64,000 bases of DNA. Source: Marinobacter psychrophilus. GTDB taxonomy: Bacteria > Pseudomonadota > Gammaproteobacteria > Pseudomonadales > Oleiphilaceae. Below the pieces are notes generated by a model, which saw only the letters and a list, made by a program, of their open reading frames with translations, was not told where the DNA came from and ran no database searches. The position numbers and the translations under genes are program-made. Position 1 is the stretch's first letter. Each line of letters starts with the position of its first letter. The stretch spans positions 1,984,001 through 2,048,000 of the forward strand of contig NZ_CP011494.1 of NCBI RefSeq assembly GCF_001043175.1, read 5' to 3'. Below are positions 43,510-61,984 of the stretch, in pieces.

Positions 43510-44118
43510 TCATCGCGGTTCAGCTCCGGTGACAGAGCCTTTCACCGTTACCGGTTTGCCCTGGATAAAGTTGATGCAGACTCCGTCGAGTTCTTCCAAA
43601 AACAGGGGCGCGCTCATGAAACCGCACGTATAGGGCGCCTGCCCGTCCCGACTGCAGCCGTCGCTTTCCAGATGTTGACACGACGTGCAGACGCCGAAGT
43701 GAGGCTTGCCTCTTTCTTGCGTCACCTGGCCGAGCAAGCGTTGCAAGGCACTGGCAAAATGACTTTGGACACTGGGAGGTAGTGATTCCGCAGCACGGAC
43801 CAGAGATTCGAAGGGGTCGTTCGCAAGAATGCCCCGGGCTTTCTCGGTCAGAACGAGCCGGACACTGCGCCTGTCGTCCTCTGACCGCATGCGTGTCAGA
43901 TAGCCTTGGGTTTCGAGGCTTTTGATTGTCTGTGACGCCGTACCCCGCGTTGTAGCATGAAATGCGGCGAAGGCGGACGGCGTTTGCGAGAAACGGTTGG
44001 CCTGTGCGAAGTATCTAAGCGCAGCCCATTGGGCTGCTGTCAGCCCCTCTGCGAGACCCTCGCCGGACGCTATGCGTCCCAAGTGAAAGACCAATTCCGC
44101 GTTAGCGCGACCGTTCAT
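43510..44118 (-). CDS. MarR-family regulator with a cysteine-rich C-terminal domain
   Basis: About 202 residues. The winged helix (LTAAQWAALRYFAQ, GTASQTIKSLETQGYLTR, DDRRSVRLVLTEKA) occupies about 15-110. The C-terminal domain carries C-x2-C-x7-C-x9-C (about residues 144, 147, 155 and 165) and another cysteine at 181, suited to an Fe-S cluster or zinc. An AAGGAG six bases before the ATG at 44118 decides the start; the frame extends to a TTG at 44163. It diverges from selO-suf across a gap with two strong palindromes. I infer a cluster- or metal-sensing autoregulator of the flanking Fe-S genes; this is not demonstrated. Confidence 0.85.
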   Translation of the reverse strand: MNGRANAELVFHLGRIASGEGLAEGLTAAQWAALRYFAQANRFSQTPSAFAAFHATTRGTASQTIKSLETQGYLTRMRSEDDRRSVRLVLTEKARGILANDPFESLVRAAESLPPSVQSHFASALQRLLGQVTQERGKPHFGVCTSCQHLESDGCSRDGQAPYTCGFMSAPLFLEELDGVCINFIQGKPVTVKGSVTGAEPR

Positions 44119-44183
44119 TTCCAGCTCCTTGATCATACTCAATTTGGTGACGTCTAATTTCAAGCCCCCTCGGTAATTTTTTT

Positions 44184-44212
44184 ATAATAGCGATTAACAA
44201 CTAATTTAACAA
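44184..44212 (-). promoter_or_regulatory. Predicted marR promoter
   Basis: On the minus strand TTGTTA (-35, 44207-44212) and TATTAT (-10, 44184-44189) are separated by exactly 17 bp, about 65 bp before the marR start. Operator A lies six bases upstream of the -35. Confidence 0.55.
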
Positions 44213-44217
44213 GATTG

Positions 44218-44236
44218 TAGTTTCGGAGCGATACCA
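44218..44236. promoter_or_regulatory. Operator A, TAGTTTCG-GAG-CGATACCA
   Basis: An imperfect palindrome matching TAGTWTCG-N3-CGAWACTA at 15 of 16 arm positions. It adjoins the predicted marR promoter, and together with operators C and D it defines a shared motif. Confidence 0.7.
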
Positions 44237-44330
44237 TAATATGGCCGTATTCGTGAAGGGTGTGAGGCCATAAAAATCGTTGATAGCTCACCTTTTCACT
44301 ATTCAGACCATAACCAGATAATGTCCAATG

Positions 44331-44349
44331 CGATAGCGTTTCGATACTA
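44331..44349. promoter_or_regulatory. Weak operator B (one good half-site)
   Basis: The right half CGATACTA is perfect; the left half matches at only four of eight positions. It ends just before the -35 of the selO promoter. Confidence 0.35.
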
Positions 44350-44351
44350 TA

Positions 44352-44380
44352 TTGACAAGTTAGCCATGCTTACTTAGTAT
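44352..44380 (+). promoter_or_regulatory. Predicted selO-suf promoter
   Basis: TTGACA (44352-44357), a 17-bp spacer and TAGTAT (44375-44380) form a near-consensus sigma-70 promoter 31 bp before selO. The -10 is the left half of operator C, so a bound protein should repress. Confidence 0.72.
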
Positions 44381-44393
44381 CGTTACGACACTA
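44375..44393. promoter_or_regulatory. Operator C, TAGTATCG-TTA-CGACACTA
   Basis: A palindrome with 15 of 16 arm positions matching the motif, overlapping the -10 of the selO promoter and the likely transcription start. Confidence 0.75.
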
Positions 44394-44411
44394 ATTAAGG
44401 AAAAAAGCGAT

Positions 44412-45932
44412 ATGGGCGCGCTTACCAGCCATCAGCAAGAAAGCCGAGGCCCGTCACGAATGATGACGGGAATGTGCTTCGATAACAGCTATGCCCGCCT
44501 GCCCGCCACCTTTTATCAACACTGTGAGCCTCTCCCAGTAGCGGCACCAGAATTGCTCGTACTGAACAAACCTCTGGCCGGGGAACTGGGGATGGATGAT
44601 TCAGACTTGATGGCAAATAGCGATCACTTAACGCAACTGTTTGCCGGTAACCGGTTGCCGATGAATGCACAGCCACTGGCCATGGCCTATGCCGGGCACC
44701 AGTTTGGCCAATTTATGCCGCAACTGGGAGACGACCGGGCGATTCTTCTGGGTGAGGTTATCGACGGCTGCCAACAGCGCCGTGACCTGCAACTGAATGG
44801 CGCAGGCCGGACACCGTTTGCAGGGAGTGGAGATGGCCGTTCGCCGCTCGGACCGGCAATACGTGAATATCTGGTGAGTGAGGCGATGCATGCGCTGGGT
44901 GTTCCCACTACCCGAGCACTGGCGTTGACGACAACCGGCGAAAAAATATACCGCCAGGGAGCGGAGGCGGCAGCTGTTCTGGCAAGAGTGGCCAGCTGCC
45001 ATATTCGGGTAGGTACCTTTGAGTATTTCGCCCGGCGTCAACAGTGGCAGCCATTGCGGCAGCTGGCTGATTACAGCATTGCCCGCATAGCCCCTGAATT
45101 GATGATCGACCCCGATCCGTATCTCGCGCTGTTGCGCCTGATGGTAGCGCGGCAGGCAAAGCTGGTCGCACACTGGATGAGTTTGGGGTTTGTTCATGGG
45201 GTGATGAACACCGACAACATGTCTCTGGCCGGCGAAACCCTGGATTATAGCTCCTGCGCCTTCCTTGATCATTACGACCCCGATGCGGTGTTCAGTCCGA
45301 TCGACATTACCGGCCGGTATGCATACAACAGCCAGGGTTTCGCGGCGCAATGGAACCTTGCTCGTCTGGCTGAGGCCCTGCTTGCACTTTTTGATGGGTC
45401 AGAATCCCAAGCCGTGGCCCAGACCTCGCGGGCGGTGCAGGAGTTCTGGCCAATGTACGAAGAACATCTGCTAGACCTGATGCGGGCCCGCCTTGGCCTG
45501 GAGGCTGTGATGCCGGAGGACCGCCAGTTGATTCAGGATCTGCGGCAGCTGTTGGCCCTGCAGAAAGTGGATTACCACACTTTTTTCCTGAGCCTGGCAG
45601 AGGATGTGGAGGGCGGCGGCATCACGGCAGGGCTTTTCGGTGCTGATGCCGGTGATTATCTGAACTGGTACCGACGTTGGCATCTCAGGCTGACACTGAC
45701 CGGCCGCAGCCCTTGCCAGTGTGCGCATGCAATGGCTACGGCAAACCCTGTGGTTATACCGCGCAATCATCTGGTAGAACACGCCATTCGGCGGGCCCAA
45801 GAGGGAGATTTCAGTGAGTTTCACCAACTTCTGGAGGCTGTCACCCGGCCGTTCGAGAAGCCGGCAAACGCTCGATATCTGCAGCCACCGAAGCCGGAGG
45901 ATGTCTTGCGCAGCACGCTTTATGGCACTTGA
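44412..45932 (+). CDS. selO: SelO-type protein adenylyltransferase (pseudokinase), short form
   Basis: 506 residues of the YdiU/SelO fold, which AMPylates proteins and is linked to redox stress. AYAGHQFGQF, RDLQLNGAGRTPF, SGDGRSPLGPAIREYLVSEAM and the metal-binding GVMNTDNMS are present. The usual DYGPxxF motif reads DYSSCAF, and the C-terminal end reads LYGT where many short SelO proteins have CGT, so the redox-active cysteine may be lost. ATG at 44412 follows AAGGA; 44463 is an alternative start. It heads the plus-strand gene train with sufB 138 bp behind. A second, long-form selO lies at 56984-58732. Confidence 0.9.
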   Translation: MGALTSHQQESRGPSRMMTGMCFDNSYARLPATFYQHCEPLPVAAPELLVLNKPLAGELGMDDSDLMANSDHLTQLFAGNRLPMNAQPLAMAYAGHQFGQFMPQLGDDRAILLGEVIDGCQQRRDLQLNGAGRTPFAGSGDGRSPLGPAIREYLVSEAMHALGVPTTRALALTTTGEKIYRQGAEAAAVLARVASCHIRVGTFEYFARRQQWQPLRQLADYSIARIAPELMIDPDPYLALLRLMVARQAKLVAHWMSLGFVHGVMNTDNMSLAGETLDYSSCAFLDHYDPDAVFSPIDITGRYAYNSQGFAAQWNLARLAEALLALFDGSESQAVAQTSRAVQEFWPMYEEHLLDLMRARLGLEAVMPEDRQLIQDLRQLLALQKVDYHTFFLSLAEDVEGGGITAGLFGADAGDYLNWYRRWHLRLTLTGRSPCQCAHAMATANPVVIPRNHLVEHAIRRAQEGDFSEFHQLLEAVTRPFEKPANARYLQPPKPEDVLRSTLYGT

Positions 45933-46028
45933 GACGGTTTGTTCGTGGGTCCGAGAGGGAGTGTAGTCTCCGGTTTATAGGGTTACAGCGATGGTGACCT
46001 TAGGTGTTGAATCAAAACCGCAAAAACC

Positions 46029-46045: not shown

Positions 46046-46070
46046 CAATGAAAGATAAGGAGTGACGATC

Positions 46071-47519
46071 ATGGCGACCACTGATAAAGAAGTGAACGAG
46101 CTGGTCAAGCGGGAATACGAACACGGTTTCGTGACTGAGATTGAATCCGACACTTTCGAACCTGGATTGAACGAGGACGTGATTGCCCGCCTTTCCGGCC
46201 TTAAGAAAGAGCCGGAATGGATGCTGGAGTGGCGGCTAAAGGCCTATCGTCGTTGGCTGGAAATGGATGAGCCGAACTGGGCGCACGTGGGTTACCCAAA
46301 AATTGACTACAACTCAATTTCCTATTATTCCGCGCCCAAGCGCAAAGAAGACATGCTCCAGAGCCTGGACGAAGTCGACCCGGAGCTACTCAGAACCTAC
46401 GAAAAACTGGGCATCCCCCTGCACGAGCGTGAACAGCTGGCAGGCGTGGCGGTCGATGCCGTGTTTGACTCAGTTTCAGTAGCGACAACGTTCAAAGAAC
46501 CACTCGCCAAAGCAGGCGTGATTTTCTGCTCCATGTCCGAAGCCATTCAGGAACACCCGGAGCTGGTCAAAAAATATCTGGGTTCTGTCGTTCCGGCGGG
46601 TGACAACTTCTTTGCTGGCCTGAACTCTGCGGTCTTCTCCGACGGCACCTTCGTGTACATACCGAAAGGCGTGCGTTGCCCCATGGAACTGTCTACCTAT
46701 TTCCGCATTAACGCAGCCAACACTGGGCAGTTCGAACGCACCCTGATCATCGCCGAAGACAGCAGCTACGTCAGCTATTTGGAAGGCTGCACCGCGCCTA
46801 TGCGGGATGAAAATCAGCTCCACGCAGCTGTGGTCGAACTGGTGGCCCTGGACGACGCCCAGATCAAGTACTCCACCGTTCAGAACTGGTATCCAGGCGA
46901 TGAAAACGGCAAGGGCGGCATCTTCAACTTCGTTACCAAACGTGGCGCTGCCATCGGTAAAAACTCCAAGATTTCCTGGACTCAGGTAGAAACCGGCTCT
47001 GCCGTTACCTGGAAGTATCCGAGCTGCATCCTTCGGGGCGAAAACAGCGTTGGCGAATTCTACTCCGTGGCGCTGACCAACAATTACCAGCAGGCCGACA
47101 CTGGCACCAAGATGATCCACCTCGGCAAGAATACGTCCAGCACTATCATCGCCAAAGGGATTTCTGCCAGTAACAGCTCGAACGCCTATCGTGGCCTGGT
47201 GAAGTTTGGCCCAGGCGCAGAGGGTGCGCGCAACTTTACCCAGTGCGATTCACTGCTGATTGGCGACCGCTGCGGTGCGCATACCTTTCCGTACATCGAG
47301 AGCAAAAATAAATCGGGCATTATCGAGCATGAAGCCACGACCTCCAAGGTCAGCGACGAACAAATGTTCCTTTGTCGTCAGCGCGGAATCAACCCTGAAC
47401 AGGCCGTTTCGATGATTGTGAACGGCTTCTGTAAAGAGGTGTTCAAGGAACTGCCGATGGAGTTCGCCGTTGAAGCTGGCAAATTGCTTGAGGTGAGCCT
47501 TGAAGGCTCTGTCGGTTAA
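46071..47519 (+). CDS. sufB: Fe-S cluster assembly scaffold subunit SufB
   Basis: 482 residues; with SufC and SufD it forms the cytosolic SufBC2D scaffold on which Fe-S clusters are built under iron or oxidative stress. [36 protein letters not shown] (with a conserved cysteine), [18 protein letters not shown] and [21 protein letters not shown] are typical. AAGGAGTG ends seven bases before the ATG at 46071, which is preferred to the GTG at 46062. It begins a tight sufBCD cluster. Confidence 0.96.
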
Positions 47520-47554
47520 AAACAGAATTTGAGATTACAGAGAGAAGCCAATAC

Positions 47555-48319
47555 ATGCTGAACATCAAAAATCTACACGCGTCCGTTGAAGGTGAAGAAA
47601 TCCTCAAGGGCATCAACCTGGAAATTAAAGCCGGGGAAATTCACGCCATTATGGGTCCCAATGGCTCAGGTAAAAGCACCTTGTCACAGGTGCTGGCAGG
47701 CAGTGAAAACTTTGAAGTCACCGAGGGTGAAGTCACCTTCAACGGTGAAAATCTGCTGGACCTAAAAACCGAAGAACGGGCCCGCGAAGGCATTTTCCTG
47801 GCGTTTCAGTACCCGGTAGAGATTCCAGGCGTCAGCAACCTGCAGTTCCTGCGCACCGCCGTCAATTCCATGCGCGGCCACCGTGGCGAGCCGGAGATGA
47901 ATGCGGCTGAGTTTATGAAACATGCGAGGGAAGTATCCATGCAAGTTGATCTGGATCCGGCCTTCCTTAAGCGCGGCGTAAACGAGGGCTTTTCCGGCGG
48001 CGAGAAAAAGCGCAACGAGATTTTGCAGGCGCTGCTGCTTCAACCCAAGCTGGCCATTCTGGACGAAACCGATTCCGGGTTGGACATTGATGCGCTGCAC
48101 GTGGTTTCGGACGGTGTTAACGCCCTGCGCGCTAAAGATCGAGCCATCTTGATGGTGACTCACTACCAGCGCCTGCTGAACCACATTGTGCCGGACTATG
48201 TTCACGTGCTGGCCGATGGAAAAATTGTCAAATCTGGCGGGCGCGAGCTGGCCTATGAGCTTGAAGAGCGCGGCTACGGCTGGCTCAACGTGAAAGACAA
48301 AGAAGCCACAGACAGCTAA
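47555..48319 (+). CDS. sufC: Fe-S cluster assembly ATPase SufC
   Basis: 254 residues of ABC-type ATPase. Walker A GPNGSGKSTLSQVLAG, signature FSGGEKKRNEILQ, Walker B LAILDETDSGLDIDAL and the switch histidine in MVTHYQRLL are intact. The ETDSGLD form is specific to SufC. ATP binding drives rearrangement of the SufBCD complex. Confidence 0.97.
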   Translation: MLNIKNLHASVEGEEILKGINLEIKAGEIHAIMGPNGSGKSTLSQVLAGSENFEVTEGEVTFNGENLLDLKTEERAREGIFLAFQYPVEIPGVSNLQFLRTAVNSMRGHRGEPEMNAAEFMKHAREVSMQVDLDPAFLKRGVNEGFSGGEKKRNEILQALLLQPKLAILDETDSGLDIDALHVVSDGVNALRAKDRAILMVTHYQRLLNHIVPDYVHVLADGKIVKSGGRELAYELEERGYGWLNVKDKEATDS

Positions 48320-48331
48320 GGAGGACACCGA

Positions 48332-49618
48332 ATGAAGTCAGCACCCACGCTTTCTCGCGTCTTTCTTGAGCCAGCCGGCAACTACCTGCCCGAGCCTTTG
48401 CTCGAATTGCGCAAAAAAAAGGGTATGGCTCTGGTGGATATGCCATTGCCGACCCGTAAAACCGAGAACTGGAAGTATTCCGTCCGCCACCTAAAGCTGT
48501 CGGATGAGCTTGCCGTTGCCCTCCCCTCTCGTGGCAAGGAAGGCACCAGCCTGTCCACGGCTGGATACCACGTAGTTTTTCGCAACGGCGTAATGGTTCC
48601 GGAAGCCAGCGACTTTCCGGATCTTGACGGCATTCGTATTCAGCGGTTCTGCGACCTTGACGACCAAACTGTCGCTGCGCTGGCAGAACGCCTGGACAAC
48701 ACGTTGGACAGCCAAACCGTGCAGATGGCCAGGCTGAACTCCGCCCGGTTTGAGGATGGCCTGTTTATCCAGCTGGACAAAGAAGCCGTTCTCGACCAGC
48801 CGCTGTTTATCATCCATGAAGTCACCGCTTCGTCGGTAGGTTCCGCCTATCCGCGGATTTACGTCGATGCGGCAAGGCACAGCCAGATGACGCTGGTAGA
48901 AGAGTACATTTCCAGCGGTAGTGAGCCGGTGATGGTTAACACGGTCACTGAATTTGTTCTGGCGGAAGGTGCCCGAATAACCAGCGTGAGGCTTACTCTG
49001 GAAGGCGAAAGCGTTCAGCACATCGGTGCAACGGGTGTTCGCCAGGCGGCTGCCTCGCGTTTTGAAAGCCACTGCGTTGGCTTTGGCGGCCCGCTGCGTC
49101 GGCACGATCTGCAGTTGCGCCTTGAAGGTGAAGGGGCCGAGTGCAAACTGAACGGTGTCGTGGTCACGCAGGGCAAGCAGCATTATGACAACCACACGTC
49201 AATCGAGCACATAGCAGCCCATTGCAACAGCGAAGAAACCTATCGCAACATCGCTGCGGGCCAATCTCATGCGATTTTCAATGGGCGTATCCATATTCAT
49301 CAGGATGCCCAGAAATCCAACGCCAATATGAGCAACAAGAATCTGTTGCTCTCAACCGGTGCGGAAATCGACACCAAGCCCGAGCTGGAAATTTACGCCG
49401 ACGACGTAAAATGCGCCCACGGCGCCACCATTGGCCAGCTCAATAAAACCTCGTTGTTTTACCTGGTTTCCCGTGGTGTCGGTCGTCGCGAAGCCAACAC
49501 GCTGTTGACCATCGCATTTATCAACGAACTGGTTGAACAGATTCCTGTTGAAGCGGTTCGAGAAGCCGTGCAGTTTCGGCTGAATGACTTTTTCACTCAA
49601 ACGTTTCAGGAGGCGTGA
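48332..49618 (+). CDS. sufD: Fe-S cluster assembly scaffold subunit SufD
   Basis: 428 residues, a paralogue of SufB with the same beta-helix core. RKTENWKYS near the N-terminus, DNHTSIEHIAAHCNSEETYRN-type sequence near residue 290, HQDAQKSNANMSNKNLLLS and KCAHGATIGQL near the C-terminus identify it; the CAHGAT histidine/cysteine region is thought to take part in iron delivery. sufC ends 12 bp before it. No sufS or sufE follows. Confidence 0.95.
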   Translation: MKSAPTLSRVFLEPAGNYLPEPLLELRKKKGMALVDMPLPTRKTENWKYSVRHLKLSDELAVALPSRGKEGTSLSTAGYHVVFRNGVMVPEASDFPDLDGIRIQRFCDLDDQTVAALAERLDNTLDSQTVQMARLNSARFEDGLFIQLDKEAVLDQPLFIIHEVTASSVGSAYPRIYVDAARHSQMTLVEEYISSGSEPVMVNTVTEFVLAEGARITSVRLTLEGESVQHIGATGVRQAAASRFESHCVGFGGPLRRHDLQLRLEGEGAECKLNGVVVTQGKQHYDNHTSIEHIAAHCNSEETYRNIAAGQSHAIFNGRIHIHQDAQKSNANMSNKNLLLSTGAEIDTKPELEIYADDVKCAHGATIGQLNKTSLFYLVSRGVGRREANTLLTIAFINELVEQIPVEAVREAVQFRLNDFFTQTFQEA

Positions 49619-49677
49619 GCCGTTATTCACGACCCTGCAGAAAATCCAGCGTCTTTTTGCCTGATGGAGGTGGAACC

Positions 49678-50031
49678 ATGACAACCGCAGTATTCACACC
49701 AACCGTTGCCGTCACCATGACGCCAAGCGCGGTCAAACACGTGCTTAAACAAGTGAACAGGCAAGCGCAAGCCAAAGGCATTCGCCTGGCCATTCGGAAG
49801 AGCGGTTGCTCCGGGTTCAAGTATGAAACCCAATGGGCCGAGGATGTCGCAGCGGACGACAAAATCTTCCATATTGACGGTGTCGATGTTTACGTCAAAG
49901 AAGAGCACCTGGCGCTGGTCAACGGTATTGAAATCGATTTCGTGACGGAAGGCGTGAACTCCGTGTTCCTGTTCCGCAATCCGAATGCCACCGCTGAGTG
50001 CGGTTGCGGGGAAAGTTTCACCGTCTCTTGA
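49678..50031 (+). CDS. sufA: A-type Fe-S carrier (SufA/IscA-like)
   Basis: 117 residues. The three invariant cysteines are in KSGCSGFKY and AECGCGESF. The N-terminus MTPSAVKHVLKQV is usual for the family. The start at 49678 follows GGAGG; the longer frame begins inside sufD. It should receive clusters from SufBCD and pass them to target proteins. A second A-type protein of ErpA kind lies at 56255-56608. Confidence 0.93.
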   Translation: MTTAVFTPTVAVTMTPSAVKHVLKQVNRQAQAKGIRLAIRKSGCSGFKYETQWAEDVAADDKIFHIDGVDVYVKEEHLALVNGIEIDFVTEGVNSVFLFRNPNATAECGCGESFTVS

Positions 50032-50303: not shown

Positions 50304-51146
50304 GTGAACATTAATGCGGAAGTAACACCAGAAGCCCATGGTTTCCTGATGTCCTTGCTTGCAAAGCAGGCAGTGCCTGGAATGACGGTGCGTGTTTACA
50401 TGGAGAATGGTGGCACTCAGAAGGCCGAGACCTGCCTGGCCTTCTGCCCGCCCGGCGAAGAATCAGCCAAGGATTTCAGGAAAGAGTTTGGTGACCTGAT
50501 CCTCTATTTCGACGCGGCGAGCGTGCCTTATCTACAAGACATGCAGATCGGCCTTGATGAAGAGGATGGTCTTCAGACCCCGACGATCAAGGCACCGAAC
50601 TCGAAAAAACTGGCAAAGCAGCCCAAGACATTTGTTTTGTCAGAAGACTGTCCTGCGTTAAAGGTGCCCTCCGGTGAGTCTGTCACGCTAACGCAGGGAG
50701 CTTCTGTCTTGATAACCCAAGCGCTTGGCGGCAGCTTCACTGTTAACTACCAGGGCAATCTGTATCGACTGTCCCCAGAAGTTACCCGGAAACTGGGCTT
50801 TCAGTCAGACGCCATCGTGTTTGAACCCCCTGAGGATGGGAAAATCAGTGATCAGCAATGCTGGGATGCGATGCGACTGGTCTACGACCCGGAAATTCCG
50901 GTGAATGTTGTAGGTCTGGGTCTCATCTACAAACTGGATATTGACCAGGACAAACACTTTGTATTTGTTGAAATGACCCTGACGTCGGCGGGTTGTGGAA
51001 TGGGCGCCATTATTGCCGGCGACGTAAAAGACAAGCTATTGCAGGTCCCGAATGTTAAAGACGGCAAGGTGGATGTGGTGTTTGATCCGCCCTGGAGCTA
51101 CGACAACCTGGAGGAGGAAGCGCGGCTGGAACTAGGGCTAATCTGA
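50304..51146 (+). CDS. sufT: Fusion of an NfuA-type A-domain with the Fe-S factor SufT
   Basis: 280 residues starting with GTG after GGGGGT. Residues about 1-110 resemble the N-terminal degenerate A-type domain of NfuA (GMTVRVYMENGGT, ETCLAFCPPGEE, PYLQDMQIG, TIKAPNSKK). Residues about 115-280 are SufT: VLSEDCPALKVPSGE, ITQALGGSFTVNYQGNLYRL, then the DUF59/MIP18 domain with VYDPEIPVNVVGLGLIYKL and MTLTSAGCGMG. SufT helps mature Fe-S proteins; the NfuA N-domain normally guides clusters to targets. I know SufT and NfuA as separate proteins, so this join is unusual. Confidence 0.85.
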   Translation: MNINAEVTPEAHGFLMSLLAKQAVPGMTVRVYMENGGTQKAETCLAFCPPGEESAKDFRKEFGDLILYFDAASVPYLQDMQIGLDEEDGLQTPTIKAPNSKKLAKQPKTFVLSEDCPALKVPSGESVTLTQGASVLITQALGGSFTVNYQGNLYRLSPEVTRKLGFQSDAIVFEPPEDGKISDQQCWDAMRLVYDPEIPVNVVGLGLIYKLDIDQDKHFVFVEMTLTSAGCGMGAIIAGDVKDKLLQVPNVKDGKVDVVFDPPWSYDNLEEEARLELGLI

Positions 51147-51237
51147 GCCAGCATCGTGACCAGTACTGGCAAGGGAAGCGACCATCAGAAACAAGTGGAA
51201 TTTCTGGCCTACTTAGGTCCTGCCCTGGAGCACCAAC

Positions 51238-53411: not shown

Positions 53412-53423
53412 CAAGGAACAAGC

Positions 53424-55703
53424 ATGGCAAGAATTCCCGAGTTCTACAAACTTTCGGTTTCGCAGCGGGTTCGCGAAGTTCGCAAGCAGGGCCTGCTTTC
53501 GAACCAGGATTACCAAGCGCTGGCTAGCGGCAATCACACGCTCTCGATCCAGTCGGCCGACAAGATGATCGAAAACGTCATCGGCGTCATGGGGCTGCCG
53601 TTGGCGCTGGGCCTGAATTTCCTGATCAACGACAAGGCATACGCCATTCCACTGGTCGTGGAGGAGCCTTCGATCGTTGCGGCGCTGAGCTCTGCGGCCA
53701 AGATCGCACGGGCCGGCGGCGGCTTCCGGGTCGAAAGCTCCGAGCCGATTTTGATTGGCCAGATCCAAGTCGTTGACGTACCGCATCCGCAGCGCGCCAA
53801 GGCGGCACTGTTGCAGCGTAAAAGCGAAATCCTGAACCTTGCCAACAGCCTGCACCCAAACATGGTGGCTCGCGGCGGCGGGGCCAAGGATCTCCAAGTG
53901 CTGATTCACCCATCATCGGGCCAGCGCGGTGACATGGTCGTCGCCCACCTGCTGGTGGATACGTGCGACGCGATGGGCGCGAACCTGGTCAACACAATGT
54001 GCGAAGGCGTTGCCTCACTGGTCGAGAATATCGCCGAAGGCAAGGTGTTCCTGCGGATTCTTTCAAATCTGACCGATCGAGCCCTGGTCAAGGCCCGGGT
54101 CTCGATTCCGCTGGACGCGCTGGCCGGCCGCGGTTTCGATGGTGAGCAGGTGCGCGACGGAATCATCCTGGCCAACGAATTTGCCTCGATCGACCCCTAC
54201 CGTGCGGCGACCCATAACAAGGGCATCATGAACGGAATCGATGCCGTGGCGCTGGCCACAGGCAATGACTGGCGCGCCCTTGAGACGGGCGCCCATGCCT
54301 GGGCTGCGCGCGGATCCCACTATACGTCGCTGACCCAGTGGACGCGGGGCGAAGACGGCTCGTTGGAAGGCGAGCTCGAGATTCCGATCAAGGTCGGTAT
54401 TGTCGGGGGTGCGCTGCAGTCCAATCCCACGGCGGCAATGAACCTCAGGCTTCTGGGCGTGAGTTCGGCGCGCGAGCTGGCCGAAGTGATGGGCGCGGTG
54501 GGTCTTGCGCAGAACTTTTCGGCAATCCGCGCGCTTGCGACCGAAGGCATCCAGCAAGGCCACATGACGCTGCACGCCCGAAGCGTGGCAGCCGCGGCCG
54601 GTGCAACACCAAAAATCTTCGAAACCGTCGTCGACCGGCTGATCGAATCCGGCGAGATCAAGATCTGGAAGGCGCGAGAGTTAATCGAGCAAGCCGTCAG
54701 CCCTCGCGTGAAGGCCGCTAAGGAGAAGCCGCAGTCTGAAACCGCTACCGAGGAACGCAACGTATCCAGCGGACACGGCAAGATCATCCTGTTAGGCGAG
54801 CACGCAGTTGTTTACGGGCGGCATGCGATCGCGACGCCGATACCGTTGGCCATACAGGCGCACGTGCAGCGCGGCGGGGACGGCGTGGAACTGATCATTC
54901 CGCGCTGGGGCGTAGAGCAGCGATTGCACCGAAGCGCAGAAAAACAGCATGCTTATGAGAAATCCTTGGCGATTATTTTCAAGACGCTCGGACTCGAACG
55001 CGAAAGCATGCGTTTGGAAATTTTCCCCAACGTACCGCGAGCCATGGGACTGGGCGGATCGGCGGCGATCGCGGTGGCCACCATTCGCGCACTGGACCGT
55101 TGTTTTGAACTCGGCCTGGATGACGAGCGCGTCAACGAGCTGGCGTTCGAGTGCGAAAAGATCGCACACGGGACGCCATCGGGTATCGATAACACGCTCT
55201 CGACCTATGGCCAGACCATGCTCTTCCGTTCCGGTGAATCGCCGCTGCGCAAGGTGATCGAGATCGATCAGGCCGTGCAGTTGGTCGTCGGTATCAGCGG
55301 TGTCGAGAGCCTGACCGCGGCGACAGTCTCGCGTGTTCGCAAGGCACGCGAAGCGCACCCCGAGCTGTACGAAACTATCTTCAACCAGATTGATTCGCTG
55401 GTGATCGAGGGCGTGGATGCGCTGGTCGGGCACAAGCTCGAGACGCTGGGAGAGCTGATGAACATTTGCCATGGCCTGCTGAACGCGATGCAGGTGTCGA
55501 GCTGGGAACTGGAGGAAATGATCCAGATTGCCCGCCGCCACGGTGCTCTCGGGGCAAAGCTCACCGGTGGCGGTGGTGGTGGTTCCATCATTGCCCTGTG
55601 TCCGCCGGAACCCGGCGCTGCCGATCGAATAGAATCGGGTATCCGTGAAGCCGGCTATCAGACGATTCAGGTTACAATGGGCGGTAAGCCGAAAAATAGG
55701 TGA
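53424..55703 (+). CDS. HMG-CoA reductase (class II) fused to mevalonate kinase
   Basis: 759 residues. Residues 1 to about 430 are a class II HMG-CoA reductase: SADKMIENVIG, catalytic Glu in LVVEEPS (about 81), Lys in THNKGIMNG (266), Asp in ATGNDWRA (282) and His in GHMTLH (380). A linker of about 15 residues leads to a GHMP mevalonate kinase (about 447-759): SSGHGKIILLGEHAVVYG, PRAMGLGGSAAIAVA, HGTPSGIDNTLS and LTGGGGGGSIIAL. Two non-consecutive halves of the canonical chain normally on separate proteins are thus one polypeptide: HMG-CoA to mevalonate to mevalonate 5-phosphate. Both domains keep their catalytic residues. A possible ribosome site AAGGA precedes the ATG. Confidence 0.95.
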   Translation: MARIPEFYKLSVSQRVREVRKQGLLSNQDYQALASGNHTLSIQSADKMIENVIGVMGLPLALGLNFLINDKAYAIPLVVEEPSIVAALSSAAKIARAGGGFRVESSEPILIGQIQVVDVPHPQRAKAALLQRKSEILNLANSLHPNMVARGGGAKDLQVLIHPSSGQRGDMVVAHLLVDTCDAMGANLVNTMCEGVASLVENIAEGKVFLRILSNLTDRALVKARVSIPLDALAGRGFDGEQVRDGIILANEFASIDPYRAATHNKGIMNGIDAVALATGNDWRALETGAHAWAARGSHYTSLTQWTRGEDGSLEGELEIPIKVGIVGGALQSNPTAAMNLRLLGVSSARELAEVMGAVGLAQNFSAIRALATEGIQQGHMTLHARSVAAAAGATPKIFETVVDRLIESGEIKIWKARELIEQAVSPRVKAAKEKPQSETATEERNVSSGHGKIILLGEHAVVYGRHAIATPIPLAIQAHVQRGGDGVELIIPRWGVEQRLHRSAEKQHAYEKSLAIIFKTLGLERESMRLEIFPNVPRAMGLGGSAAIAVATIRALDRCFELGLDDERVNELAFECEKIAHGTPSGIDNTLSTYGQTMLFRSGESPLRKVIEIDQAVQLVVGISGVESLTAATVSRVRKAREAHPELYETIFNQIDSLVIEGVDALVGHKLETLGELMNICHGLLNAMQVSSWELEEMIQIARRHGALGAKLTGGGGGGSIIALCPPEPGAADRIESGIREAGYQTIQVTMGGKPKNR

Positions 55704-55707
55704 GGAT

Positions 55708-56262
55708 ATGCGCGAAAAAGTATCGTTCGATGACGAGCCCCTTATACTCGTTGATGAAGATGACAACGAAGTAGGCTATCGCTCAAAAAGCGACTGCCAC
55801 GAGGGCCATGGAACCCTGCACAGGGCGTTCTCGATTTTCCTGTTCGACGAACAGGGCCGAGTGTTGCTGCAGCAGCGTGCTGCGGGCAAACCGCTCTGGC
55901 CGCTGTACTGGTCCAACAGCTGCTGTTCGCATCCCCGACGCGGTGAGACAATGGACCAAGCGCTTCACCGCCGTCTACGGGAAGAACTGGGGCTGGAAGC
56001 GTCGCTGACATTCGTTTACAAGTTCATCTACCAAGCCGATTTCGGTGATCGCGGTGCTGAGCACGAATTGTGCCACGTATACATCGGCTCATCGGGCGGC
56101 GAAGCCCGGGTGCACCCGGCTGAAATTGCCGACTGGCGCTGGGTGCCCATCGAAGAAGTGACTCGCGAGCTCGAAGACGCGCCATCCGAGTACACACCCT
56201 GGTTCAAGATGGAATGGAAGGCACTGATGGACCAGGGGCGCAACCATATCGACACTAGATAG
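55708..56262 (+). CDS. idi: Isopentenyl-diphosphate isomerase, type I
   Basis: 184 residues with a Nudix fold. [11 protein letters not shown], the catalytic cysteine in [13 protein letters not shown], Nudix-like [13 protein letters not shown] and the catalytic glutamate in EHELCHVY are present. GAGG lies just before the ATG at 55708, 4 bp behind the fusion gene. The type I enzyme needs a divalent metal and no flavin or Fe-S cluster. Its 3' end overlaps the convergent erpA-like gene by 8 bp. Confidence 0.95.
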
Positions 56263-56608
56263 TGAACGAACTGCCGCAACCACAGGTTGAGCTGGCGTTC
56301 GGGTTCTGCACGACAAACTGTGCTCCTTGCAGCCCCTCCTGATAATCGACCATTGCGCCTACAAGATACTGATAGCTCATGGGGTCGACCAGAAGACTCA
56401 TGCCGTCTTTTTGAATCACCGCGTCTTCATCATCTTGCACCTTATCGAACGAGAAGCCGTACTGAAATCCAGAGCAGCCGCCGCCGGTTACGAACACCCG
56501 AAGCTTCAGGTTCTCGTTGCCTTCTTCTTCGACCAATTCACGTACTTTGGACACCGCACTTTCACTGAGAAACAGCGGGGTTATGGTGTGTTCCTGGACT
56601 ATGCTCAA
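56255..56608 (-). CDS. erpA: ErpA-like A-type Fe-S carrier
   Basis: 117 residues. [11 protein letters not shown] and STCGCGSSF supply the three cluster cysteines; [21 protein letters not shown] and [12 protein letters not shown] are typical of ErpA. ErpA passes clusters to essential enzymes, in E. coli including the isoprenoid enzymes IspG and IspH, which makes its position next to a mevalonate pathway notable. It ends the minus-strand gene train, 40 bp after the Sel1 gene. Confidence 0.93.
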
Positions 56609-56648: not shown

Positions 56649-56987
56649 TCACGTATTTGGCTGTGCTAAACGTTGCAAATGTTTTTTAGCGATGGGATCG
56701 CCCTGCTCTGCTGCAAGACGATACCAATGGCCCGCCAGGGTCATGTTCAGCGCGATACCTGAGCCATTTTCGTAAAGCTCGCCCAGACTGCGGTGTGCTA
56801 AAGCAAAATTTTGTTGTGCGGCGAGCTGCATCCAATAAAAAGCGATGGTCTCATCTTTAGGCACTCCACGGCCCCGCAAGTATCGCATTGCCAATAAACG
56901 TTGCGCACGGGCGGAGCCTTGCTCAGCATCGGTTTGTAAACCCACCACCGATTCTTCCCAGGTCAAAAATGCTTTTTTTTCGGTCAT
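56649..56987 (-). CDS. Sel1-repeat protein
   Basis: 112 residues with about two to three Sel1-like helical repeats: [38 protein letters not shown] and [13 protein letters not shown]. There is no signal peptide, so it should be a cytosolic scaffold. It overlaps the stop of the second selO by 4 bp, so the two are probably co-translated and may interact. Confidence 0.85.
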
Positions 56988-58732
56988 GACGAGCAGCTGT
57001 AGTGCGACGATCCGCCAACTTCGAAGAGCTCCAGTGGCTTCAGTCGATAGTATTTCTTCTCTACGTCTTGCGATTGCTCGGCGTATGGCTGGGTCATGAC
57101 GTCCTGCAGTTCTCGTACTAGAGAGTAGTTACCGGCTGCTGCTTGCTGATACGCAGGCACAACGAACCACTCCCGCAAACTGTATTTTGGGTTGACGAGT
57201 TTCATCTCTTGAGAGAGCTCCTCATGAGCGCGAGGCGGAGTTGCCGTTGCGTCGGTTGTACTGATAATGCCGGCAAGCGTTTTCCATTTTGTGAGCCACT
57301 CCTCCCAACGCTTGTCCATGCCTTCGAGGTCTGTTTTCAAAGTTGAGCCTTTATAAAAGCTTTTTTTGAGCACGCCAATGTCGTCGGGCACCGTTGAGAG
57401 TTGGCGAAAGAAAACGGTGTAATCAACAGATGTTTGCATCATCAACGTTGTGAGTTCACTGAATAAGGCTTGGTGAAAGGCGGCGAGCCCAAGTTTGGCA
57501 GCCCACATCTTCTTCATTTGCGTTTGCATCGCTTTTGGAAAATCACCTTGGATCTCGTCGAGCTCAATTAGACGGTCCTGATGCGCCGTCAGCAACGGGC
57601 GTAACGCCGAACAAAACGTGTGGAAGTTACGTTCGGCGGCTTCTGGCTGATTCAGGAACGAGAAGTGGTGTCCGCCGCCCGTCCATGGCTGGTACTGCGG
57701 ATCAAATGCATCGCAGAATCCGAAAGGGCCGTAGTCGAGGGTGAAACCGCCGGCCGCACAGTTGTCACTGTTAAAGTTTCCCTGGCAATAGCCGACACGA
57801 ATCCAGTTCGCTACAAGCGATGTGAGTCGACCGCGAAACTCCCGCGCAAGCAACACCACTTTTTCGCTGGTTGCCAGGTTCTGATCGATGACGTCACCAT
57901 ATTCACGGTCGATCAGGTGCAACACAATCTGCTCAAGCTCTTCCATCGCTTGCGGGTGTTCTTTCTTGCGTGCACGGCGACCGAAGAGCTCCAGTTGACC
58001 AACCCGAATAAACGAAGGTGCAACCCGCGTCGAGATGGCGACAGCGTCCGATACCAGCGTGTCCGGATCTCTTGAATGCGAGCCTTCCGAATACCAGGGC
58101 CTCCTGACCTTCTCTGTTTTCGACACGTACAAACTCAGCGAACGCGATGTTGGCACCCCAAGCGCGTGCATGTGCTCCTGCGCCAGAAACTCCCGAACAC
58201 TCGACCGTAGAACGGCCCGGCCGTCCGCGCCGCGGCAGTATGGCGTGCGGCCGCCACCCTTAAGCTGCATTTCCCAGCGCTGACCGTTGATGACGGCTTC
58301 AAGCACCGAGATGGCGCGCCCGTCGCCGTACCCGTTGCCAGTTTGGAACGGGCACTGTTGAATGTACTCGGTGCCATAGATAGAAAGCGCGTAGCCACAT
58401 GCCCAACCGACCTTGCGCATCGGCTCTGGAACGAATGCGATGTCGCCGGAGAATACACGAACAAAGTCGGCCGACTGCGCCATGCTGTCGGCGAAGCCCA
58501 ATTCGCGAAACAGGTTTTTGCTATGCGCGACGTACTCCGGGTTTTCGATTGGCGTGGGAGTGACGGGAACATAGTGGCCCGTGAAAACTTGTCGTGGGGC
58601 GTGGTCGTGTCCATTTACTGTCGCGTCAGGGTCGCAGTTGAGGGAATCCATAAGCGAATAATTTGCCAACGTTGCAAGATCGTTGAGCGTCGAGATATTA
58701 GGGGCGGTTTTCTGGGGCGGTCGCTTTATCAC
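56984..58732 (-). CDS. selO: SelO-type protein adenylyltransferase, long form
   Basis: 582 residues, a second SelO paralogue distinct from that at 44412. Near the N-terminus it has [20 protein letters not shown]-site motifs are [35 protein letters not shown] sequence, [11 protein letters not shown] (catalytic and metal Asp) and [14 protein letters not shown]. It ends in CSS, matching the position of the redox-active Sec/Cys in SelO proteins. It overlaps nfu upstream by 4 bp and the Sel1 gene downstream by 4 bp. Confidence 0.9.
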
Positions 58733-59364
58733 AATGACTCCTTATGGCGCGGGTAGAAAGGTTGCGTTCCTGCTGCGTGGTCGGTCACATCAATAATCTC
58801 CTCGATTTCCGGAGCGACTCTTTTGAGCATGACTTCGAATCCCTGCCTCAGCGTTACCTGAGAGGACGCGCATCCCTGGCAGCCTCCGCTCATGGTGATA
58901 GAAAGCTTCCCTTGCCGTACCCCCACAATAGAAATCTTCCCGCCGTGGTTAGCGATTGAACGATTGACCTCTTTATCGAGCAGTTCCTGAACAGCCGTCG
59001 TGAGCTCTGCATCGGTTTTTCCTTGCCTGCTGTTAGCAACAGGCATCTCTAGGATCGCCGGAACGCCGCTGCGCAGTTGCGTACGGATGGCCATTCCGAT
59101 ATCTGCTTTCAACCCTGACCAAGAGGCAGTCGGTTCTTTGCAGACGGTCACCACGCTATCGGCAATCAGCACGTTAGCCACGCCAGTAAGCGCGAACAGT
59201 TGCTCTCCGAGCGGCGAACCCACGGCTCGTTCTTTGTTGCCAAAAAAGAACGGGCCGCCAGGATGCAAGGTACGGCTGACGATGAACTTGCACGTGTCAG
59301 GATCGGCGAGCGAAGATTCGGCGCGAATACTGACCGGTTGATCTGCAAGCAGAAAATTAGACAT
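58729..59364 (-). CDS. Nfu-type Fe-S scaffold/carrier
   Basis: About 211 residues from the ATG at 59364. The N-terminal Nfu_N domain includes [13 protein letters not shown] and [18 protein letters not shown]; the C-terminal NifU-like domain (about 125-200) holds the cluster-binding CxxC in GGCQGCASS. This is the mitochondrial/alphaproteobacterial NFU1 layout rather than gammaproteobacterial NfuA, whose A-type N-domain is instead fused to SufT in this locus. Start overlaps the mrp stop. Confidence 0.92.
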
Positions 59365-60604
59365 TTTCAACATCGCCCGCTGCAGCGCTCGCACCCAAGG
59401 CGCGTAGGTTGTTAAATGAATATATTCCGCTGTTATGGCCGTCGTTCCAATCGAATTTGACCGCGTAGTTACCGATGCTCACGATCTGTTGCGGAGTCAC
59501 ATCAGGTCGTATCGTCTTTGGATCGAGCAGCTTGCGTCCGCTCATCTCCTCGACACAAAGGGCGCAATGACATGCCAGGCGCAGATCGCGGACGTCAAAG
59601 TCATCGCGATGACCATCCTCCCAGAGAACGGATAAAGTGCGCGGATCGCGACGCAGTAAACCGATCGGGGTGTTTTGTGATCCAGCCGGCCGCGCCGCAT
59701 CTTCCGCCCAGTCCGGAGCCCCGTCGTTGCTGTCCCATGTCCAGACAAAGGGTTTTAGTACGGTGATCGACGCGTGAAGTTGCTCTACAAGCGCCGTAGC
59801 GATGGATGCATACACCTTGGAGCTAACCGATGTTGGCTGTCCCGCCACGATCGGGAGACCTTCATCACCGCTGGTAACGACATCGACATCGAGAGGTAAG
59901 GCACCCAGAAACGGGACATTAAGCTCTTCGCTCATCTGCTCACCGCCACCGTGACGAAAGATATCCGTGTTCTCGCCGCAGTGAGGACAGGTGAAGGTGC
60001 GCATGTTCTCGACTAGTCCAAGAATCTTGACCTGCACTTTCTCGAACATCCGCAAGCCTCGGCGAGCGATCTTGAGGCTCACAGTCTGTGGCGTCGTTAC
60101 GATCACTACGCCCGACAGTGGCATACTCTGTGCCAGCGTCAACTGGACATCGCCCGTGCCGGGTGGCAGGTCAAGAATCAGGTAGTCCAGCGATCCCCAT
60201 TGCACGCCGTCGACGAACATTTTGAGGTATTTTCCAACCATTGGCCCGCGTAAAACAGCCGGCTCGTCATCTCCGGTGAGCATGCCCATCGACACCACCT
60301 TCAGGCCGTGCTGTTCCGCCGGGATCATCTTTCCCTCCGGGGTCGTCGCTGGCCGCTCACAGGTTGGGATGCCGAGCATGCCGGGGATACTGGGGCCAAG
60401 AATGTCGGCGTCTACGATTCCGACGCGCGACCCTAGCCGCTGCAGTGCTAGGGCTAAATTTACACTCACCGTGGATTTTCCGACGCCGCCCTTGCCACTT
60501 CCGACGGCGATGATGTGACGTATCCCCGGCAGCTTATCGGTGCTAACGGCCGACCTAGGTGATGCGTCAGGCGCGTGAGATTGATTACGGTCAGTGTTCT
60601 GCAT
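59357..60604 (-). CDS. mrp: Mrp/NBP35-family P-loop ATPase with C-terminal DUF971
   Basis: 415 residues from the ATG at 60604 (AAGGA upstream). The deviant Walker A GSGKGGVGKS, VDADILGPSIPGMLG, LDLPPGTGDVQLT and the cluster-binding CPHCG identify an Fe-S carrier ATPase. The last ~90 residues are a DUF971 domain (SVLWEDGHRDDFDVRDLRLA, VSIGNYAVKFDWNDGHNSGIY). The P-loop plus DUF971 layout resembles plant HCF101, whose third domain, DUF59, is here found in the SufT fusion of the partner operon. The N-terminal DUF59 of most Mrp proteins is absent. Confidence 0.93.
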   Translation of the reverse strand: MQNTDRNQSHAPDASPRSAVSTDKLPGIRHIIAVGSGKGGVGKSTVSVNLALALQRLGSRVGIVDADILGPSIPGMLGIPTCERPATTPEGKMIPAEQHGLKVVSMGMLTGDDEPAVLRGPMVGKYLKMFVDGVQWGSLDYLILDLPPGTGDVQLTLAQSMPLSGVVIVTTPQTVSLKIARRGLRMFEKVQVKILGLVENMRTFTCPHCGENTDIFRHGGGEQMSEELNVPFLGALPLDVDVVTSGDEGLPIVAGQPTSVSSKVYASIATALVEQLHASITVLKPFVWTWDSNDGAPDWAEDAARPAGSQNTPIGLLRRDPRTLSVLWEDGHRDDFDVRDLRLACHCALCVEEMSGRKLLDPKTIRPDVTPQQIVSIGNYAVKFDWNDGHNSGIYSFNNLRALGASAAAGDVENV

Positions 60605-60735
60605 GGTTAAATTCCTTGTATTTTCAATTAACGGGGGAGAACGTGGCTTTGATCTCTGCCGCCAAAATAACAACCGATCCCAGTTCATACGCTTATTGCC
60701 TACCATCATTTTGCGAAAGTCGATAAACCTGAAAC

Positions 60736-61098
60736 TCAGTAGGTCGGCATCGTGCCGTCGATTTGCAGAGCCCAGGCGTGAACGCCACCTGTAAGGTTGC
60801 TAACGTGGTTAAAACCCTGTTTTTGTAAAAACAACCCGACTTGCATACTACGTACGCCGTGGTGGCAGATGCAGACAATTGAATGCTCCAGGTCCAGTTC
60901 GGAAAGCTTGTCATGAATGGTATTCATCGGCATCGTCAACGCACCGCTAATATGACAGATCTGGAATTCCCACGGCTCACGCACGTCGAGTAATACGGGG
61001 TTCGGGCGCGCGGCATCTACGAACCATGCTGCGAGCTCTGGTGCAGTCAAGCTCTGCATCGTTGCAAGCCCGCCTATTAATGGTTTTGAGGTCATCAA
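60736..61098 (-). CDS. Rhodanese-domain protein
   Basis: 120 residues, one rhodanese domain: [15 protein letters not shown], then the active-site loop CHHGVRS, and [17 protein letters not shown] persulfide on the catalytic cysteine could supply or relay sulfur to cluster assembly, which matters because no cysteine desulfurase is encoded in this locus. Start overlaps the glutaredoxin stop by 4 bp. Confidence 0.92.
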
Positions 61099-61412
61099 GC
61101 CAGCGCTGACTGAAGCAATTTCTGCAGTTCACCTTGCTCATACATTTCACGCACAATGTCGGCACCACCGACAAACTCACCCTTGATATAGAGCTGAGGA
61201 ATGGTCGGCCAGTCGCTGTACACCTTGATGCCATCGCGGATTTCCAGATCAGCCAGCACATCGACAGCAGCAAAATCCCGCACGCCGCAGGCATTCAATA
61301 TCTGCACCGTCGTATTCGAGAAACCACACAGTGGAGACTGGGGCTTGCCCTTCATATATAACACGACGGTATCCGTTGTGATCTGACTAAGAATTTTTTC
61401 CTGTACGTTCAT
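61095..61412 (-). CDS. grxD: Monothiol glutaredoxin (Grx4/GrxD type)
   Basis: 105 residues with the CGFS active site in [30 protein letters not shown] (glutathione-binding) and [15 protein letters not shown]. Such proteins bind a glutathione-ligated [2Fe-2S] cluster as homodimers or with BolA proteins, and a BolA gene lies directly upstream. Confidence 0.95.
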
Positions 61413-61429
61413 TCGTGATTTCTCCGACG

Positions 61430-61678
61430 TTATTGGGTGCCCGATTGCGCCCAGGTTTGGGGCGTAAAAGTGCGCATGGCCAGCGCGTGAATCTCCGAAC
61501 CCATCCGATCTCCGAGTGCCAGATAAACCAGTTGATGCTGCTGTATCTTATTTTTGCCGGCAAATTGCTGGCTCACAATGACCGCTTCGAAGTGTTGGCC
61601 GTCATCGCCCTGCACTTCTACGTGATCGCAGGTCAGGCCATTGACGATGTAGTCTCTTAGATCATTCGCTGTCAGCAC
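61430..61678 (-). CDS. BolA-family protein
   Basis: 82 residues. [19 protein letters not shown] contains the conserved histidine; [24 protein letters not shown] is the class II (IbaG/BOLA2-like) C-terminus. It is the first gene of the minus-strand train, 17 bp before grxD. Monothiol glutaredoxin-BolA heterodimers act in Fe-S trafficking and iron sensing. Confidence 0.93.
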
Positions 61679-61734
61679 TTTGTCCTCCTAAGGGTTACCA
61701 AGGCCTCGTGACCTTCACCAATACGGCAGTATTA

Positions 61735-61753
61735 TAGTATCGTTCCGAAACTA
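61735..61753. promoter_or_regulatory. Operator D, TAGTATCG-TTC-CGAAACTA, with the bolA promoter
   Basis: All 16 arm positions fit TAGTWTCG-N3-CGAWACTA, and the symmetry extends outward (ATTATAGT…ACTATAAT, 61731-61757). On the minus strand TTGACA lies at 61760-61765 and TATAAT at 61731-61736, with the operator between them; the 23-bp spacing is longer than normal, so the exact promoter is uncertain. It stands 57 bp before bolA. Confidence 0.75.
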
Positions 61754-61843
61754 TAATGTTGTCAAGATAGTTTAAAAACGCGGCGACCAAAACCTGACCA
61801 AAGGGGGATGAACTGGACAGTCATGCGAACGCCGATTGAGTCT

Positions 61844-61984
61844 TTTACCCGGGGTATGGCTTCACAGACAATAAAAAACATTGAAGCCATAAGCTATTTG
61901 ACGCGCATACGCTCAGAAAATGATGGGCGCAAGGTTCAGTTCGTTTTGACTGAAAAAACTTGGAACGATCTCCCTCGAACCTGC
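61844..61984 (+). pseudogene. Fragment of a MarR regulator paralogous to 43510-44118
   Basis: FTRGMASQTIKNIEAISYLTR and SENDGRKVQFVLTEKTWNDLP align with the recognition helix and wing of the regulator at 43510-44118 (TTRGTASQTIKSLETQGYLT, SEDDRRSVRLVLTEKA). Both ends and the cysteine-rich domain are missing. It lies divergent from bolA, across operator D, mirroring the intact regulator next to operators A and C. Confidence 0.8.

Follow-up and report, generated by a model that had tools for sequence, protein, structure and literature searches.

Why some bacteria keep two pathways for isoprenoid synthesis is a question raised in concrete form by a locus of Marinobacter psychrophilus, in which mevalonate pathway genes stand among genes for iron-sulfur (Fe-S) cluster assembly. 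The bacterial methylerythritol phosphate (MEP) pathway ends in two [4Fe-4S] enzymes, IspG and IspH, and the mevalonate route needs neither. We analyzed the locus in a stretch of 64,000 nucleotides (assembly GCF_001043175.1, contig NZ_CP011494.1, positions 1,984,001 to 2,048,000 of the forward strand), which is called the window here and whose positions are used throughout. The genome is a single contig of 3,998,597 bp and is 99.96% complete. We consider it fairly probable that the locus is a horizontally mobile contingency island, controlled by a MarR-family regulator, for failure of Fe-S cluster supply. Sequence comparisons establish its gene content, its operators, its mobility and the upkeep of its mevalonate genes.

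Gene content, extent and operators of the island

The island covers about 34.8 to 61.9 kb of the window, roughly 27 kb. Its extent follows from two observations: homology to the window stops just past the aconitase gene in two genomes of the same genus, at 34827 in G044 and at 34930 in G110 (where only 784 further bases were compared), and on the right the island ends at a MarR remnant (61838-61963). Three trains make up the island: the regulator with spare Fe-S enzymes, a SelO-SUF-mevalonate train, and a BolA-GrxD-Mrp-Nfu-SelO-ErpA train.

34978..36939, minus strand: aconitate hydratase, 653 amino acids, final gene of the leftward train (PRK07229 and TIGR01342 above cut-off; 89% identity to Polaromonas plasmid copies beside MarR)
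37003..38466, minus strand: gltD, glutamate synthase small subunit (TIGR01317 above cut-off)
38571..43427, minus strand: gltB, glutamate synthase large subunit (PRK11750 above cut-off; 82 bp from MarR)
43510..44163, minus strand: MarR-family regulator with a C-terminal Cys4 motif (PF12802, PF01047; four cysteines invariant in 22/22 sequences)
44218..44236, no strand: operator with one mismatch, standing before the promoter-like site of MarR (pattern match)
44331..44349, no strand: weaker operator-like site directly before the -35 element of the plus train (matrix score 14.2; invariant in the six-island alignment)
44375..44393, no strand: plus-train operator, overlapping the -10-like hexamer 44375-44380 (exact pattern match)
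44412..45932, plus strand: SelO (protein adenylyltransferase), first copy (NF000658 above cut-off)
46062..47519, plus strand: SufB (PRK11814 and TIGR01980 above cut-off)
47555..48319, plus strand: SufC (from sequence, place between SufB and SufD, and conservation in other islands, without a family scan)
48332..49618, plus strand: SufD (from sequence, position and conservation in other islands, without a family scan)
about 49672..50031, plus strand: SufA/IscA-type A-type carrier, start picked by eye (TIGR00049 above cut-off)
50304..51146, plus strand: SufT with an Nfu/HesB-like N-terminal part (TIGR03406 190 bits, cut-off 202.6; PF01883 above gathering score)
about 51322..52329, plus strand: diphosphomevalonate decarboxylase (MVD), start picked by eye, open reading frame (ORF) opening at 51238 (TIGR01240 above cut-off)
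52326..53411, plus strand: phosphomevalonate kinase-like GHMP kinase (PMK; TIGR01220 80 bits, cut-off 165.7)
53424..55703, plus strand: class II 3-hydroxy-3-methylglutaryl-CoA (HMG-CoA) reductase fused to mevalonate kinase (HMGR::MVK; TIGR00532 and TIGR00549 above cut-off)
about 55705..56262, plus strand: isopentenyl diphosphate (IPP) isomerase type 1 (IDI), start picked by eye (PRK03759 and TIGR02150 above cut-off)
56255..56608, minus strand: ErpA (PRK13623 above cut-off)
56649..56987, minus strand: Sel1-repeat protein (PF08238)
56984..58732, minus strand: SelO family, second copy (PF02696; 78% to the Polaromonas plasmid copy)
58729..59394, minus strand: Nfu (PF01106, PF08712)
59357..60709, minus strand: Mrp/ApbC P-loop carrier fused to a GBBH-like_N domain (PF10609, PF06155)
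60736..61098, minus strand: rhodanese (PF00581)
61095..61412, minus strand: GrxD, Grx4-type monothiol glutaredoxin (TIGR00365 above cut-off)
61430..61678, minus strand: BolA (PRK11628 43 bits, cut-off 137)
61735..61753, no strand: minus-train operator, flanked by its -35 (TTGACA, 61765) and -10-like elements (exact pattern match)
61838..61963, plus strand: decayed second MarR copy (60% identity over regulator residues 69-110, E 1.5e-8)

An earlier, sequence-only reading of this DNA had named most of these genes, and its identities and positions agreed with the ORF list and with the NCBIfam and Pfam scans; the two convergent trains were also as described, meeting in an overlap of 8 bp (56255-56262). 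Its left border at 43510 had to be moved, since gltB, gltD and aconitase (34978-43427, minus strand) come after the regulator on the regulator's strand. All three encode Fe-S enzymes. The core of the SUF system is present, SufB by family model and SufC and SufD by sequence and order, and HMGR::MVK aligns with PDB 1qax along its reductase half.

The regulator scored above the gathering thresholds of PF12802 and PF01047, and the SufR model TIGR02702 was absent from the nine NCBIfam matches at E<=0.001. Its invariant cysteines are residues 159, 162, 180 and 196, in sequences sharing 28-89% identity.

The palindrome TAGTNTCGNNNCGANACTA occurs exactly at 44375-44393 and 61735-61753, at both outer ends as the earlier reading had stated, and with one mismatch at 44218-44236. 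When 3,998,597 bp of the genome were scanned, these three were the only sites with 0-1 mismatch, all at island promoters, and one further site had 2 mismatches (C1:1775606). The pattern read backwards, used as a control, gave 15 genomic sites at <=2 mismatches. Since the pattern was derived from the two outer sites, the match of those two is not independent evidence; the independent evidence is the conservation of the operators in other islands and a matrix scan of other loci. The operators were retained in the five other islands of the genus, and across the six islands the fractions of invariant columns were 1.00, 0.89 and 0.89 for the operators versus 0.80, 0.67 and 0.67 for their flanks, a comparison that somewhat favors the operators because the sites were found by pattern.

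The matrix was built from 8 sites of G000 (the genome studied here), G110, G111 and G118 and used at a score threshold of 14. It gave 10 matches in MarR-bearing loci from other taxa, 216,562 bp in total (L171, L172, L174, L175, L176, L180-L182, L184), against 2 matches in 1,367,747 bp of loci L003-L082, a background not matched to them in G+C content. Nine of the 10 matches fell between genes, with a MarR, SUF, aconitase or sigma-factor gene as neighbour; the other (L184 11338) lay inside a gene. L174, L180 and L182 had no match at score >=14.

Two operators overlap sigma-70-like promoter elements. In the plus-strand promoter region, TTGACA begins at 44352, and the first operator base, 44375, is also the first base of the -10-like hexamer TAGTAT. 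In the minus-strand promoter region, TTGACA begins at 61765 and is followed first by the operator and then by the -10-like elements. The promoter calls are consensus matches only, with 13 promoter-like matches versus 8.9 in shuffles. Between SufT and MVD, we found no promoter- or terminator-like match on the plus strand.

Outside the island, positions 16761-26778 of the window hold ABC-type transporter genes followed by urease-like genes, as judged by eye from protein starts.

Isoprenoid routes and the source of HMG-CoA

The genes for IspG (C1:1784346) and IspH (C1:846227, 316 amino acids) are present with open reading frames, so that mevalonate is not the only isoprenoid route, and we rejected the explanation that it is. 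Absence of the MEP genes, which the sequence-only reading had named as fatal to its idea, therefore does not apply for these two. That reading had also described a lower mevalonate pathway with IPP isomerase. The cassette is there, with HMGR, MVK, PMK (under its model cut-off) and MVD; HMGR, fused to MVK, also belongs to it, which corrects that description.

The search for mvaS, which the earlier reading had suggested, gave no HMG-CoA synthase (HMGS). PF01154 had 0 matches in the genome, and a 14-row HMGS alignment (A1) made from cassette-bearing genomes had 0 matches at E<=10. As controls, PF01154 was run on 40 other genomes that hold this reductase family (drawn from 80 loci) and matched 26 of them, and A1 matched at full length in G029, which was no source of A1. 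Alignment A1 found nothing in G000, G102, G044, G110, G100, G089 or G111, and an HMGS motif search of the fetched loci returned only an archaeal-type motif, in Chloroflexi-like loci. The idea that HMGS is merely divergent was rejected within the reach of PF01154 and A1.

Since the cassette runs from HMGR onward without HMGS, HMG-CoA must come from elsewhere. An operon in liuRABCDE order (L166 2600-9783), in which HMG-CoA lyase and a biotin-carboxylase model scored above cut-offs and the other liu-type proteins matched their families below cut-offs, could supply HMG-CoA by leucine degradation. With no HMGS found, the route most likely starts from this leucine-derived HMG-CoA, which would feed HMGR.

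Unfused class II HMG-CoA reductases, 44-49% identical, were found in 16 same-genus genomes including G102, where they perhaps serve mevalonate catabolism.

Occurrence in the genus and in other lineages

The sequence-only reading had proposed a search for the same neighbourhood in other genomes. The island was found in at least six species of the genus, and related kits were found on Polaromonas and Octadecabacter plasmids. HMGR::MVK was searched in 124 same-genus genomes and the regulator in fewer than all 124. Full-length fusions at 96-100% identity were found in G000, G102, G044 and G927, and a C-terminal fragment in G948, so that the whole mevalonate cassette is present in four of the six islands. 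In G110, transposase fragments occupy its place. In G948 (L207), a deletion of window positions 51156-55571 removes MVD, PMK, HMGR and most of MVK and leaves IDI intact.

The rest of the island also varies. The first SelO copy is shared by the G927 and G948 islands and is not in G102, G044 or G110; the regulator gene and gltB adjoin without interruption in G102, G044 and G110, 4.1 kb separates them in G927, and no gltB was seen in G948 within the 2.3 kb examined. G102 carries a second, partial copy of the minus train (L139 5514-10439; Mrp, Nfu, SelO, Sel1, IDI), about 84-89% like the first and lacking ErpA and mevalonate genes. Pairwise dN/dS (ratio of nonsynonymous to synonymous substitution rates) between the window and G102, G044 and G927 was 0.16-0.23 for MVD, 0.14-0.18 for PMK, 0.10-0.14 for HMGR::MVK and 0.10-0.12 for IDI, without stops, which indicates that the mevalonate genes are under purifying selection in four species.

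Among 117 relatives searched with the regulator, close copies outside its own genome were found in G102 (99%), G044 and G110 (both 95%), and the regulators of G927 and G948 are 95-96% identical; the next relative, at 42%, is divergent to a SelO gene in G100. At E<=1e-30, a class-level search found the family in 3 of 369 genomes, the own genome included. Among 399 genomes of a second family, it was found in 2, one of which (G869) is only a 3-kb contig, and viral contigs searched with the regulator gave no relative. The metagenome regulator P0002 and reductase P0127, whose longest contigs both have 119,517 bases, probably lie on one contig.

On the Polaromonas plasmid pE3SP1, a regulator (76%) is divergent from an aconitase gene (89%), and an operator-like site precedes the train IscA-ErpA-SufBCD-SufS-SufU-BolA-GrxD-NifU-BolA-FolE-FdxA-LipA-rhodanese-Mrp-Nfu-SelO-SagB-MoaA-VIT-IlvB-IlvN, which adds FdxA, LipA and MoaA to the cargo. 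On a Comamonadaceae chromosome (G737), the regulator (72%) is divergent from a similar train that ends in SelO and MoaA and also holds FdxA and LipA (both by eye). An Octadecabacter plasmid has a regulator (45%) next to FdxA, SdhB and aconitase.

Cryobacterium, of another phylum, has related clusters. In L041, one strand carries SufT, SufU, SufD, SufC, SufB, a SufR-like gene (TIGR02702 E 1e-19, below cut-off) and HMGS; divergent from it are MVD-PMK-HMGR::MVK, then IDI, FdxA and aconitase (66% to that of the window). L037 has aconitase, HMGS and the cassette, with SufR-like, SufS, FdxA and SufB genes about 7 kb on; L038 has aconitase, HMGS and the cassette, and L044 lacks aconitase and SUF. Cryobacterium thus shows a separate, independent clustering with SUF genes of the mevalonate and aconitase families that the island carries.

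Some further neighbourhoods were recorded. On alphaproteobacterial plasmids, a sigma-70-type or RpoH gene lies near a MarR relative (L184 23626-24588, L174 3051-3947, L175 3055-3858), with operator-like sites in L184 (the Octadecabacter plasmid) and L175. A Ruegeria megaplasmid (L176 13677-17115) carries a remote MarR relative whose neighbours are genes for MOSC, hexameric tyrosine-coordinated heme and redoxin proteins; a gene for a 'degradative' reductase lies 8 kb from it in a stretch without Fe-S assembly genes, and we took this proximity as chance. A Methylocystis plasmid (L209) has the same aconitase family near genes for electron transfer flavoprotein-ubiquinone oxidoreductase (ETF-QO), an NADH dehydrogenase subunit, katG and DUF6522, and no operator match at score 14. 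An Azotobacter plasmid aconitase had no Fe-S neighbours, and the Cupriavidus stretch carries no annotation.

Weighing the explanations against known systems

The sequence-only reading had proposed a regulon that derepresses cluster repair together with an Fe-S-independent isoprenoid supply. The presence of IspG and IspH, the shared operator, the conserved Cys4 C-terminus of the regulator, purifying selection on the mevalonate genes and the separate clustering in Cryobacterium speak for it; it needs revision in that HMGS is missing and the mevalonate cassette is optional. Since the regulon also holds the Fe-S enzymes GltB, GltD and aconitase, we regard as the best explanation a broader version of the idea, in which assembly, spare parts and a bypass go together. 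In the mechanism that we infer, the regulator would hold an Fe-S cluster or a metal on its four C-terminal cysteines and repress all three trains. Cluster damage or a lack of iron would make it release its operators, and the trains would be induced jointly. The cell would gain additional proteins for building and delivering clusters, spare Fe-S enzymes and a way to isoprenoids that needs neither IspG nor IspH, most likely from leucine-degradation HMG-CoA through HMGR::MVK, PMK, MVD and IDI. The idea of a bypass is well supported by comparison; its signal, its flux and its HMG-CoA source are the parts that we infer.

Several observations weigh against this contingency island. No SufS, SufE or SufU was seen among the ORFs of 42.5-63 kb, and SufS with SufE or SufU is present in the Polaromonas and G737 counterparts. 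Two of the six genus islands (G110 and G948) lack the cassette, and no mevalonate genes were seen in the Polaromonas or Comamonadaceae stretches. The reductase-kinase fusion stands in 48 loci (L003-L050), 42 of them with an MVD neighbour; SufB was found in 2 of the 48 and this aconitase in 3, and these loci all belong to Cryobacterium and lack the MarR and its operator. The unmatched G+C of the matrix background, the missing HMGS and the position of the cassette beside squalene synthase or hopene cyclase genes elsewhere count on the same side. Leucine oxidation, moreover, hands electrons to ETF-QO, itself an Fe-S protein. The four cysteines could bind zinc instead, and distant MarR relatives in G089, G111, G118 and Ruegeria (28-39%) stand beside non-Fe-S genes.

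MarR proteins often sense ligands or thiol oxidation, and the regulon might answer another stress (metal, electrophile or nitric oxide) through a zinc site or thiol sensor, with Fe-S assembly and mevalonate secondary. Distant family members beside heme, MOSC or unrelated genes and heavy-metal P-type ATPases nearby on the Polaromonas plasmids fit this explanation, which we regard as unlikely, though a serious one, given that the closest relatives stand beside Fe-S assembly genes or enzymes in all three usable contexts (pE3SP1, pE10SP1 with aconitase, and G737). We think it improbable that the cassette is a passenger from a squalene/hopanoid cluster that merely lies behind sufT and raises quinone, squalene and carotenoid supply without a special Fe-S link. 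Its origin is compatible with that: MVD, PMK and HMGR::MVK have a G+C of 0.61-0.63 versus 0.52-0.55 for the suf genes, and the closest proteins outside the genus and outside the group at >=95%, among the matches listed (the best 120 of the 8000 best candidates scored), are those of Wenzhouxiangellaceae at 90-91%. A squalene/phytoene synthase gene adjoins the cassette in L036, L004 and L008, with hopene cyclase too in L036, so that its older role was different, and it is complete in only four of the six islands. No squalene synthase or hopene cyclase was seen among the ORFs of 42.5-63 kb. Purifying selection keeping the cassette intact in four species, the independent clustering with SUF and aconitase in Cryobacterium, and other island versions with spare Fe-S enzymes that fit a shared theme argue against a passenger.

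A cassette without HMGS might also make no isoprenoids from central metabolism, using imported mevalonate or running HMGR in reverse in mevalonate catabolism. The reductase does match the 'degradative' model TIGR00532, and the unfused reductases of the genus may point the same way. The MVK fusion and the linkage to PMK, MVD and IDI indicate synthesis, HMGS exists in the 26 of 40 other genomes mentioned above, and a leucine route to HMG-CoA exists; we judge this explanation quite improbable.

Returning to the contingency island, we offer a broader proposal tentatively and with some doubt: that a cluster-failure kit was repeatedly assembled and passed between bacterial lineages, in which a Cys4 MarR (SufR in Actinobacteria) switches on assembly, spare enzymes and a mevalonate detour, the detour of this genus lacking HMGS and being fed by HMG-CoA from leucine breakdown. 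If this is true, isoprenoids would be made from amino-acid catabolism during stress. The locus would then give a concrete reason for keeping both isoprenoid pathways, namely mevalonate as an inducible way around two fragile [4Fe-4S] enzymes, under the switch that also controls cluster assembly. The locus also suggests that the ability to withstand Fe-S damage is passed on as a mobile unit.

We found no printed description of a natural SUF-mevalonate regulon in the open-licence literature. SufR is a repressor of the winged-helix type with cysteines at its C-terminus, and its gene stands next to SUF genes; SufR-controlled suf operons resemble the island in these respects. The regulator described here differs in being of the MarR family without a SufR-model match, in having another operator and in apparently also governing spare Fe-S enzymes and mevalonate genes. 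In the accessible part of PMC12343034, SufR is named as a [4Fe-4S] regulator. With its defined operator, the Cys4 MarR is a candidate for a new class of Fe-S-linked regulator.

The Polaromonas plasmid Fe-S loci (PMC6015842) share the regulator (76-79%) and the aconitase (89%), and pE3SP1 also shares SelO (78%) and a SUF train behind an operator; they differ in having no mevalonate genes in the stretches read. In the main text of that paper, as far as it was available, M. psychrophilus is named as carrying the closest relative of the plasmid aconitases, aconitase is mentioned separately, and MarR, mevalonate and SelO do not appear. Two-pathway bacteria such as Listeria (PMC13001223) likewise have MEP and mevalonate genes in one genome; in our case HMGS was not found and the mevalonate genes lie inside an Fe-S island. 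The available text of that source contains neither 'Fe-S' nor 'leucine'.

The nearest functional parallel comes from E. coli, in which, according to the accessible portion of PMC2682760, iscA sufA and erpA mutants survive with a foreign mevalonate pathway plus mevalonate because IspG and IspH are not matured. A review, in the part available, extends this rescue to Fe-S biosynthesis as a whole (PMC8593673). In that engineered bypass, as proposed for the island, mevalonate-derived IPP removes the need for IspG/IspH maturation (PMC2682760). The E. coli bypass is a laboratory construct fed mevalonate, whereas the island consists of natural genes in one train system with ErpA and a SufA-type carrier, and it may be what corresponds in nature to the rescue of E. 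coli A-type-carrier mutants in the laboratory.

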